Program-made: the position numbers and the translations under genes | Assembly: GCA_003963365.1 (NCBI GenBank) | Contig: RXJG01000001.1 | Coordinates: 1-64,000 of the forward strand | Reading direction: 5' to 3' | Origin: Sphingobacteriales bacterium | GTDB taxonomy: Bacteria > Bacteroidota > Bacteroidia > Chitinophagales > Chitinophagaceae | Length of the DNA stretch: 64,000 bases | The notes under the pieces: model-generated | The model's input: only the letters and a program-made list of their open reading frames with translations | What the model was told of the DNA's origin: nothing | Databases searched by the model: none | Part shown: in pieces, positions 23,744 through 29,967 of the stretch | Layout: every line of letters begins with the position of its first letter | How positions within the stretch are numbered: the first letter of the stretch is position 1

Positions 23744-26700
23744 TTATACTCTCGGTGGAATTAATTTATAAACAACGGGTGTCACAATTCTTGATAATAA
23801 GGTAGATGAAATCAATCCTCCAATTAATACCAGTGCCAATGGTGATATGAGTGGATTACTGCTTAATGCTATGGGTGTTAAACCACCAATGGCTGTTAAG
23901 CTGGTTAATACAATGGGTAAGAAACGTAATTCACCTGCCTGCTTAATGGCTTCATTTAATTCCATTCCCTCTTCTCTTAATTGATTAGTGAAATCAACCA
24001 GCAAAATTGAATTCTTTACTTCTATACCTGCCAGCCCGATAAAACCAATAATGGCAACAAAGCTCATGGGGTTACCCGTGAACCAAAGCATCATCACACC
24101 ACCAATGATGCCTAATGGAATTACGGATAATACAATGAGTGTGCTTTTAAAAGTTTTAAACTCTAAGATCAGCACCATGATGAAAAGAAAAACAGTAGCG
24201 ATAATCACCGTCATAAAACCACCGCCAAATGCTTCTTTCTCACTTTCTGCTTCTCCGGCTATTTGTACATTGTAACCAGCCGGTAATTGTAATGTTTTTT
24301 CTTTTTCAAGAAATGCTTTATTAACCTGCTGTGCCAGCACACCTTTATCGGTAAAAGCAGTTACAATTACAAAACGTTTTTTATCCAGGTGCTTAATAGT
24401 TGTGGGGGAAGATTCAAACTCCAATTGTGCAATTTGATTTAGTGGTACCGGAGTGCCAACAGCATTATTTACAAAAATGTTATTGAAAGTGTTAATGGTG
24501 GCAAATTTTTCTTTGGGTGCATTAATGGTAATATCATAATCATCACCCGCTTCATTGGTGTATTTACCGGCGGTTAACCCGGCTACCGATAAACGAACGG
24601 TTTTATCAATATCCGAAGTAAGAATACCCAGCGTTCTGGATTTTTGTGTGTTGATATTAAGATGAATATCGCTCTTCAGTACCCCCACTTCATTGTTTAC
24701 ATAAATAGCGCCGGGGATTGATTTTAATAACTGTTCTGTTTTGCCGGCTAATGTTCTTAACGTATCAAGGTTGTCGCCTGTTATACGAATCGCTACAGGT
24801 GCTTCTATCGGGGGCCCCTGTTCAAAATCTTTTACTTCAATTTTTGCACCGGCTACCCGGATAAATTTTTCCCGCAGCTTTTCAATGAGTTTTTTCTTTT
24901 CTTCAGGGCTAACATCATGCTGTAACTGTACAAAAAACTGTGCAAAGTCGGGTTTTTCATTTTCCGGAATTACATTGTAATAAATTCTTGGGTTGCCTTT
25001 GCCCACATTGGTGGCATAGTATTCAATTTGCTTTTCTTTTTTTAACTCACCCTCCACATAACGGGCCATCTTATCCGTTGTTTCCAGGTTGCTTTGCAAT
25101 GGCATATTTACATTTACCAAAAACTGTGCTTTCTCCGATGTGGGAAACAAACGGAAACCAATGATTTTAAAAATACTCAACGAAGCGCCAAATAAAGCAA
25201 AAGCAATGATGAGTGTTATCAACGGATGTTTCAATGAATAATCCAGCACACGGGTATAACTGCCGCTGATTAGTTTTTTCAAGCCACGTAAAAAGATATT
25301 GCCTTCCGGGTTATGATTGGTTTTTAAAACTTTACTTGCCATAAACGGTACAATCGTCAATGATACCAGCATTGACGCAAACACAGATGAAATAACAGCC
25401 ATAGGCAATCCTCTTATAAATTCACCCGGACCCTCGGGCATAAATACCAACGGAAGGAAAGCAATGATTAAAGTAGCCGTGCAGCCCAGTACCGCTAAGC
25501 CGATCTGTTTAGTGGCCTCAATTACTGCATCCATTTTTGAATGTCCTTCTCTCAGCCATCTTTCAATATTTTCCACTACCACAATACTGTCATCTACCAA
25601 TAAGCCGAGGGCCACCACCATACCCACAATACTCAGTTGATTTAGTGAGAAACCCATCAGGTTCATGATAATAACTCCAATACCCAATGATAAAGGAATA
25701 GCTACCATTACTACAAGTGACGCTCTCCATCCCAATGGCACCAGCGTTATTAAAACAAGGGCGATGGCAATGATAAAATCAATTCCTAACCCGCCTAATC
25801 GTTTGCTTACATTATCAGCCTGGTCAAAATGTTTTACTAAGGCAATATTGGGGGGTAATTTTTTGGTGAATGATTCAATCACCGGTAAATATTCTTTTTG
25901 TGTACGGGCAATATTTTCCCCGGGTTTTTGTGCTGCCGTTATAAATACACAACGATGTCCATTTAACCGGGTAATATGTTTTTCTTCCTGGTAATTGAAG
26001 GCCACATCTGCCACATCTTTCAAATAAACAACACCGCCATTGCCGTTAAATACGATGGTGTTTTTTATTTCTTCAATGTTTTTATACTTACCGCTTGTTT
26101 TTATGTTATATGTTTTACTGCCGGCACGGATGCTGCCCCCGGGAATATTGGCTGCTTCGCTCTGAATATTTCCAATTACATAATTAAGCGGAATATGTTG
26201 CTGTGCCAGTTTATCTAATTTTAAATCCACTCTTACCAACTGGTCAGGTACGCCATGATATTCTACTTTTTTCAGACTTTTTATTTTCTCTAAATCTTCT
26301 TTTAACTGTTCTGCATAAAACTTCATTTTTTCATTCGAAGCATTTTCTGATACCAGGGCGATTTGTAAAACATTTACATCTGTTGGGGTTATTTTCCTTA
26401 CCTCAATGCTATATAAATCCGGCGGCAATTCGTTACGGATGGCATTAATTTCCCTCACCAGTTCCTGGTATTTGGATTCCACACTGCTTTCGTATTTATA
26501 TTCCACTACTATCGAAGCAACCCCATCATCAATTTTTGAAGTAATCTTTTTTAAATCTTCCAGTTCACTCACTCTTTTCTCGATAGGCTTTACCACCAGT
26601 TCTTCCATATCTTTCGGACTGGTTCCGGGATAGATGACAATGATAGGAAATTGCGGTGGATGTATTTCCGGGTCTTCCGCTCTTGGCATCGTTAATAAAG

Positions 26701-26788
26701 TGGTTACACTCACCACTACAATCATCAGGAACATCACCAATGTAAACTGGTAGTTCTTTACAAAGAAGGATGTAATACGCATGATCAA
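23744..26788 (-). CDS. RND efflux transporter permease
   Basis: A 1014-residue inner-membrane RND pump of the AcrB/CusA superfamily. Twelve TM helices flank two large periplasmic loops: TM1 at about 12-32, then the first loop to about 335, and the second loop about 555-850. TM4 holds the proton-relay pair in GLLVDDSIVVVENIERW (about 395-412), and IALVLITLVPLG lies in TM2. It is shorter than AcrB-HAE1 pumps (about 1040) and close to the HAE2-like or cation groups of Bacteroidota. Substrate is unknown. It is last in the tetR-tolC-adaptor-pump unit, 22 bp after the adaptor gene. Confidence 0.93.
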   Translation of the reverse strand: MIMRITSFFVKNYQFTLVMFLMIVVVSVTTLLTMPRAEDPEIHPPQFPIIVIYPGTSPKDMEELVVKPIEKRVSELEDLKKITSKIDDGVASIVVEYKYESSVESKYQELVREINAIRNELPPDLYSIEVRKITPTDVNVLQIALVSENASNEKMKFYAEQLKEDLEKIKSLKKVEYHGVPDQLVRVDLKLDKLAQQHIPLNYVIGNIQSEAANIPGGSIRAGSKTYNIKTSGKYKNIEEIKNTIVFNGNGGVVYLKDVADVAFNYQEEKHITRLNGHRCVFITAAQKPGENIARTQKEYLPVIESFTKKLPPNIALVKHFDQADNVSKRLGGLGIDFIIAIALVLITLVPLGWRASLVVMVAIPLSLGIGVIIMNLMGFSLNQLSIVGMVVALGLLVDDSIVVVENIERWLREGHSKMDAVIEATKQIGLAVLGCTATLIIAFLPLVFMPEGPGEFIRGLPMAVISSVFASMLVSLTIVPFMASKVLKTNHNPEGNIFLRGLKKLISGSYTRVLDYSLKHPLITLIIAFALFGASLSIFKIIGFRLFPTSEKAQFLVNVNMPLQSNLETTDKMARYVEGELKKEKQIEYYATNVGKGNPRIYYNVIPENEKPDFAQFFVQLQHDVSPEEKKKLIEKLREKFIRVAGAKIEVKDFEQGPPIEAPVAIRITGDNLDTLRTLAGKTEQLLKSIPGAIYVNNEVGVLKSDIHLNINTQKSRTLGILTSDIDKTVRLSVAGLTAGKYTNEAGDDYDITINAPKEKFATINTFNNIFVNNAVGTPVPLNQIAQLEFESSPTTIKHLDKKRFVIVTAFTDKGVLAQQVNKAFLEKEKTLQLPAGYNVQIAGEAESEKEAFGGGFMTVIIATVFLFIMVLILEFKTFKSTLIVLSVIPLGIIGGVMMLWFTGNPMSFVAIIGFIGLAGIEVKNSILLVDFTNQLREEGMELNEAIKQAGELRFLPIVLTSLTAIGGLTPIALSSNPLISPLALVLIGGLISSTLLSRIVTPVVYKLIPPRV

Positions 26789-29212: not shown

Positions 29213-29233
29213 TAATAATCGGTGTTTATATTA

Positions 29234-29246
29234 TGAACAATGTTCA
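29234..29246. promoter_or_regulatory. TetR operator O2, before the TolC gene
   Basis: TGAACA-A-TGTTCA is a perfect 6-bp inverted repeat around one base. It matches the site at 29904-29916 exactly apart from the central base, and both continue with GTA (TGTTCAGTA). It lies 22 bp from the TolC start codon, where bound repressor would block transcription. Confidence 0.8.
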
Positions 29247-29264
29247 GTACGCAGGCAAAAAAAA

Positions 29265-29876
29265 TCAAAGATTTTCCAGCATGTTTACTAAATATTTATA
29301 ACCCTCTTCTATCAGTTCTCCGGGTTCGATATCATGATAAGCCTTGCATCTTTCACGGCAATATAAAGCTGCCATGCCATGCACGCCTGACCATACAGCA
29401 AATGATAAATATTCAATATTTTTTCCTTTAAAATATCCTTCCTTCTTACACTCAGTTAAAACTTGTTTCAGGTAGTCCAGTGTTTGATGACCCATTTCCC
29501 ACTGTTCATGGTCCGCTTCATGTTTGATAGGTGCTTGCATAATGAACATCAGGTCGTAAAAATCTTTGTTTTCAGTGGCGAATTCCAAATAGACTTTGCC
29601 CAGTGCTTTCAATCGTTCAAAAGGAGAGGAGACGTGTCCAAGCGGTTGCATCTTTGTCAGCATCCGTCGAAAACCTTCTTCATGCAGTGCATGAAAAATT
29701 TCATCTTTGTCTCTAAAATATAAATAAATAGTGCCGGGGCTGTATTGAATTTCTTCTGCAATATTCCGCATGCTGGTATCGTGATAACCTTTTTCCAGGA
29801 AAATTTTCCTAGCAGCATCCAGTATCAGGCTGCGCATCTCTTCTTTTTCTCTTTGTTTCCGGGTGGCAATAGTCAT
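29265..29876 (-). CDS. TetR/AcrR-family repressor of the efflux operon
   Basis: About 203 residues from the ATG at 29876 (MTIATRKQREKEE). The track start at 29924 would run through the operator at 29904-29916, so I reject it. The N-terminal TetR helix-turn-helix is LDAARKIFLEKGYHDTSMRN to SPGTIYLYFRDKDEIFHAL (about 17-62). The C-terminal half (about 75-200) is a ligand-binding helical domain of the large TetR_C type, with a Cys-containing YCRERCKAYH stretch. Two identical palindromes in front of itself and of tolC indicate autoregulation and repression of the pump, released by an unknown inducer. Confidence 0.9.
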   Translation of the reverse strand: MTIATRKQREKEEMRSLILDAARKIFLEKGYHDTSMRNIAEEIQYSPGTIYLYFRDKDEIFHALHEEGFRRMLTKMQPLGHVSSPFERLKALGKVYLEFATENKDFYDLMFIMQAPIKHEADHEQWEMGHQTLDYLKQVLTECKKEGYFKGKNIEYLSFAVWSGVHGMAALYCRERCKAYHDIEPGELIEEGYKYLVNMLENL

Positions 29877-29903
29877 GTGAAATTGTTTGCAGGGCAAAAA
29901 TAA

Positions 29904-29916
29904 TGAACAGTGTTCA
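29904..29916. promoter_or_regulatory. TetR operator O1, before the TetR gene
   Basis: TGAACA-G-TGTTCA is the same inverted repeat as at 29234-29246, 28 bp upstream of the tetR ATG at 29876. Presence ahead of both genes supports autoregulation and confirms the downstream start of tetR. Confidence 0.8.
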
Positions 29917-29967
29917 GTATTCAAAATATTTTTTACGCAGGTGGTAATTGCAGAGTAATGAACGGAA

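Follow-up and report, generated by a model that had tools for sequence, protein, structure and literature searches.

We find that two palindromic sites framing a tetR gene, here termed O1 and O2, are very probably operators for the product of that gene, a TetR-family repressor that would use them to repress both its own gene and the adjacent tolC-adaptor-RND pump genes. The first-pass annotation of the window (the whole stretch of DNA analysed, 64,000 nt) had predicted such autoregulation together with repression of the pump, and the prediction gains support from the conservation of the paired operators, the overlap of O1 with a promoter and the joint change of the two operators across clades, from which we infer binding. 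The sites and the genes around them are as follows:

29904..29916, no strand assigned: O1, tetR-side operator, exact TGAACAGTGTTCA, centre G
29234..29246, no strand assigned: O2, pump-side operator, exact TGAACAATGTTCA, centre A
29265..29876, minus strand: tetR, 203 aa, with TetR_N and TetR_C_33 (Pfam) and Gly48 in the recognition helix
27863..29212, minus strand: tolC-like outer-membrane efflux protein (OEP), Pfam PF02321
26810..27853, minus strand: RND periplasmic adaptor (HlyD/RND_mfp), TIGR01730 at 174 bits (cut-off 94.9)
23744..26788, minus strand: RND permease (AcrB/AcrD/AcrF family), PF00873 at 663 bits

Both sites are perfect 6-bp palindromes around a single base, TGAACA-n-TGTTCA, differ in that central base, and continue with GTA on the plus strand, exactly as first described; the distances given at that time, 22 bp from O2 to tolC and 28 bp from O1 to the tetR ATG, hold as coordinate differences and correspond to 21 and 27 intervening bases, respectively. 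The window contains no other exact match (shuffles predict 0.01, and none of 100 reached two), and neither does the whole genome (4,037,540 bases). When three mismatches are allowed, the window yields 43 matches against 44 expected, which is chance level, so that only the exact sites stand out. The first-pass annotation had further suggested a genome-wide search for the motif as a way to additional members of the regulon. Such a search gave none: over the 4.04 Mb there are no further exact sites, and since the nine sites with one mismatch all lie within ORFs, no more members are seen at that level either. A wider regulon in this genome was therefore rejected; judged by exact and one-mismatch sites, the regulon seems confined to the tetR/pump locus.

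Could the two sites resemble each other by chance? A Markov model built from the composition of the window predicts approximately 0.5-0.6 exact sites per genome, and in some genomes of the family exact sites do occur away from any orthologue. Yet here two of them lie 670 bp apart round one regulator gene, and this position is kept in more than 140 loci. Because of this positional conservation, chance similarity is refuted, and we assign it a practically negligible probability.

The genes on the minus strand follow the order ppx-like gene, tetR, tolC, RND adaptor and RND permease. The regulator combines an N-terminal helix-turn-helix (PF00440, 67.9 bits, cut-off 24) with a C-terminal ligand/dimer domain (PF13305 TetR_C_33, 47.6 bits, cut-off 26.8); its AF2 model is all-helical with a mean pLDDT of 91, and Foldseek matches the model to TetR structures, the nearest being of the FadR and DarR type at ~20% identity. 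It thus has both hallmarks of the TetR family, the N-terminal helix-turn-helix and the all-helical C-terminal domain, and no NCBIfam equivalog scores it over the cut-off. OEP, RND_mfp and ACR_tran, the components of a tripartite RND pump, are encoded downstream of tetR, as are homologous pump genes in the orthologous loci; for the subfamily of the permease, every NCBIfam model scored under its cut-off. The mechanically called tetR ORF starts at TTG 29924 and would enclose O1. The alignment with orthologues, however, starts at ATG 29876, and hence the longer, operator-containing ORF is not the gene. This strongly supports ATG 29876 as the tetR start and agrees with the earlier suspicion that the listed start had been placed too far upstream.

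The paired sites are conserved across Bacteroidota. Our first set comprises 69 orthologous loci from many families of the phylum, whereas the second adds 95 new distinct proteins, which share clades with the first set and are thus not fully independent of it; a contig scan supplied 16 relatives, and searches at the phylum, family and class levels added more. Counting sites with at most one mismatch to the operator core T-n-AACA-n-TGTT-n-A, we found an operator upstream of tetR in 67 of the 69 loci and between tetR and the pump genes in 64, with 62 loci having both. The corresponding numbers for the second set are 84, 91 and 81 out of 95. In a few orthologues no site can be recognised on one of the sides, which counts against the operator reading. 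Perfect cores are present at 46 upstream and 46 downstream sites of the first set, compared with 0.1 in dinucleotide shuffles. Counterparts of O1 mostly lie 26-59 nt before tetR and those of O2 mostly 13-25 nt past its stop. Operator conservation reaches down to ~40% protein identity, and the loci include representatives of Chitinophagaceae, Saprospiraceae, Rhodocytophaga and Chryseotalea; within the organism's own family, about a quarter of the sampled genomes carry an orthologue (31/120 and 95/399). Spread by plasmids was considered and rejected: no plasmid relative exceeds 60% identity, and the ten best-ranked are Streptomyces plasmids at ~30%.

In one genome (G007; locus L218, G007:C53), the upstream operator is far from tetR, with a gene for a short-chain dehydrogenase-like protein in between. 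There, the operator precedes the dehydrogenase-like gene, the new first gene, which has probably joined the regulated unit; it thus tracks the start of the transcription unit rather than that of tetR, as operators should.

On the tetR side, the operator coincides with a recognisable promoter. TTTG and TAnnTTTG are elements of promoters of the Bacteroidota primary sigma factor (PMC7366714), and two elements were predicted around O1 from sequence:

29922..29925, minus strand: TTTG as the predicted -33 element for tetR, with 19 bp between it and the -7 box
29895..29902, minus strand: TATTTTTG, predicted -7 box (TANNTTTG), beginning one base past O1

The tetR promoter of the window accordingly reads TTTG-N19-TATTTTTG, with O1 inside the spacer, i.e., the operator overlaps the regulator's own promoter. 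The T at -9/-8 is kept in 74-77% of orthologues. In the second set, an exact TANNTTTG begins one base after the tetR-side operator in 63 of 84 loci, and a match of at least 5/6 to it is found at that offset in 76 of the 84, against a background of 1.5. Judging from this arrangement, with O1 flanked by the two elements, repression at this promoter is likely to work through steric exclusion of RNA polymerase.

The pump side is organised differently, with two further elements flanking O2:

29256..29264, minus strand: T-run TTTTTTTTG between tetR and O2, a possible -33 element or terminator tail
29216..29228, minus strand: degenerate satellite operator TAAACACCGATTA, at a downstream offset of exactly 18 bp from O2

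The putative pump-side promoter region is non-canonical and lacks the usual -7 box, TANNTTTG being absent between +5 and +60 of the pump-side operator from all 91 loci of the second set. This counts against the operator reading on this side. The missing box would also suit a palindrome that acts in the transcript, as a terminator or attenuator after tetR, and so would the overlap of the T-run and, in some loci, of a hairpin with the tetR stop. The palindrome, however, comes after the T-run and not before it, hairpins receive weak support on average (mean z -1.1), and O2 shares the sequence of O1, usually down to the same class of half-site base 2 (see below). Furthermore, the T-run, often followed by G and present at this position in most loci, ends 9-12 bp before the pump-side operator in nearly all loci that possess one, and the length of this gap is nearly constant (sd 1.7) when measured to the operator, as opposed to the tetR stop (sd 37.6). 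As its spacing is held relative to the operator rather than the stop, termination alone was rejected as an explanation of the T-run, and we consider a purely transcript-borne role of the palindrome highly improbable.

Read as an operator, O2 appears to have a companion. When the operator core was scanned at different offsets around the sites, with 10 core positions scored, offset +18 on the pump side reached 6.94/10 matches in the first set, compared with a background of 3.10, and 22 of 63 loci had at least 8 core matches there. The signal persists after down-weighting of close relatives (z 5.7) and recurs in the second set (6.66 vs 3.06 background). The distance from satellite to operator is fixed, whereas that from satellite to the tolC start varies. 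The satellite is probably a second, weaker site for a repressor dimer. In both sets, the two best-scoring offsets on the tetR side are likewise +18 and -18, though their signal is weak; since they overlap the T-rich -33 and -7 elements there, they may partly reflect promoter sequence.

A connection between sites and regulator comes from variation in base 2 of the half-site, which among loci is G, A, T or, once, C. Within a locus, O1 and O2 agree in base-2 class in 76% of cases versus 50% in shuffles (maximum among 5000, 71%), and TT is paired with TT in 12 loci of the first set. From clade to clade, the two operators of a locus change this base together, which is what reading of both by a single protein would predict. 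We scanned all columns of the protein alignment in the first set and found that a single residue fully separates the base-2 classes:

29733..29735, minus strand: codon of TetR residue 48, which is second in the recognition helix

Residue 48 is Thr in all 12 TT loci and Gly, Ala or Ser in the other 50. Counted by half-site, first-set proteins with Thr48 face T in 50 of 50 cases, those with Gly48 face G 104, A 19 and T 1 times, and those with Ala48 face A 43, G 35 and T 4 times. The second set behaves in the same way (Thr48: T in 172/176; Gly48: G 66, A 12; Ala48: A 53, G 41, T 2). In both sets, then, base 2 can be predicted from residue 48, with TTAACA for Thr and either TGAACA or TAAACA for Gly or Ala; the distinction between Gly and Ala is only a tendency. 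A tree built without column 48 requires at least 7 changes of Thr48 and at least 6 of the T operator. Every independent contrast that we counted points the same way, with six on the best tree. Only three rest on well-supported branches, however, so the phylogenetic sign test does not reach significance (p 0.25).

These data also bear on whether tetR and the pump might both be controlled by another regulator, to which the palindromes would belong. Some credit is lent to this alternative by a TetR paralogue encoded in the same genome (L219, G000:C7:222500-226500), whose ATG is preceded at 26 bp by a related palindrome, CTAACAGTGTTAG. Nevertheless, exact sites in the genome occur solely around the tetR under study, and base 2 follows residue 48 of this protein's own recognition helix throughout the phylum, second set included. 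Control by a different regulator is therefore very unlikely.

Under the favoured reading, in which the locally encoded TetR protein acts at both sites, a repressor dimer on O1 would block RNA polymerase between the -33 and -7 elements, resulting in negative autoregulation, and a dimer on O2 would repress the tolC-adaptor-RND pump genes, probably aided by a weaker second dimer 18 bp downstream. A pump substrate or lipophilic ligand, expected to be accommodated in the C-terminal domain, would then free both sites. TetR-family proteins occasionally activate transcription, and this counts against the repression part of the scheme. We give roughly even odds to a more far-reaching proposal, namely, that this phylum-wide TetR lineage possesses a one-residue code, in which residue 48 sets base 2 (mostly G for Gly, A or G for Ala and T for Thr) and repressor and both operators were switched together several times, and that, in addition, the pump operator is bound as two side-by-side dimers 18 bp apart at a promoter without the usual -7 TTTG.

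The locus is of a known type, and a local TetR repressor of an RND pump is an ordinary arrangement. In Riemerella anatipestifer, likewise a member of Bacteroidota, the RaeR/RaeB locus B739_0870-0873 has the same gene set, with adjacent genes for TetR, outer-membrane factor, membrane-fusion protein and RND permease, and deletion of the RaeB pump raised susceptibility to aminoglycosides and detergents (PMC5727081); the likeness is one of gene content, and no RaeR operator was found in the literature searched. According to a review (PMC4790292), BmeR5 of Bacteroides fragilis, a TetR regulator similar by published description, binds the intergenic region of bmeR5 and bmeC5 and represses the BmeABC5 RND pump operon; no BmeR operator sequence was found in the literature searched. 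AcrR of enterobacteria is also a local TetR-family repressor of an RND pump, acrAB, but the AcrR equivalog model PRK10668 gives the window TetR 37.6 bits against a cut-off of 271, and the pump studied here has the order tolC-adaptor-permease, with all genes in the direction of tetR. FadR/DarR-type regulators, the nearest in PDB folds and sequence profiles, are only ~20% identical and differ in gene context; the FadR model NF053878 scores 55.4 bits against a cut-off of 200, and the PDB title of DarR describes it as DNA-bound in the form of a dimer of dimers. In the literature searched, we did not find a TGAACA-n-TGTTCA operator for such a repressor lineage.

Finally, three points go beyond what had been noticed in the first-pass annotation: the satellite at 18 bp, the association with residue 48 and the non-canonical promoter region of the pump. 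Our results predict the operator, the promoter and the regulon of a widespread lineage of Bacteroidota efflux repressors, and the link between residue 48 and base 2 represents a natural experiment on how TetR proteins shift their DNA specificity.
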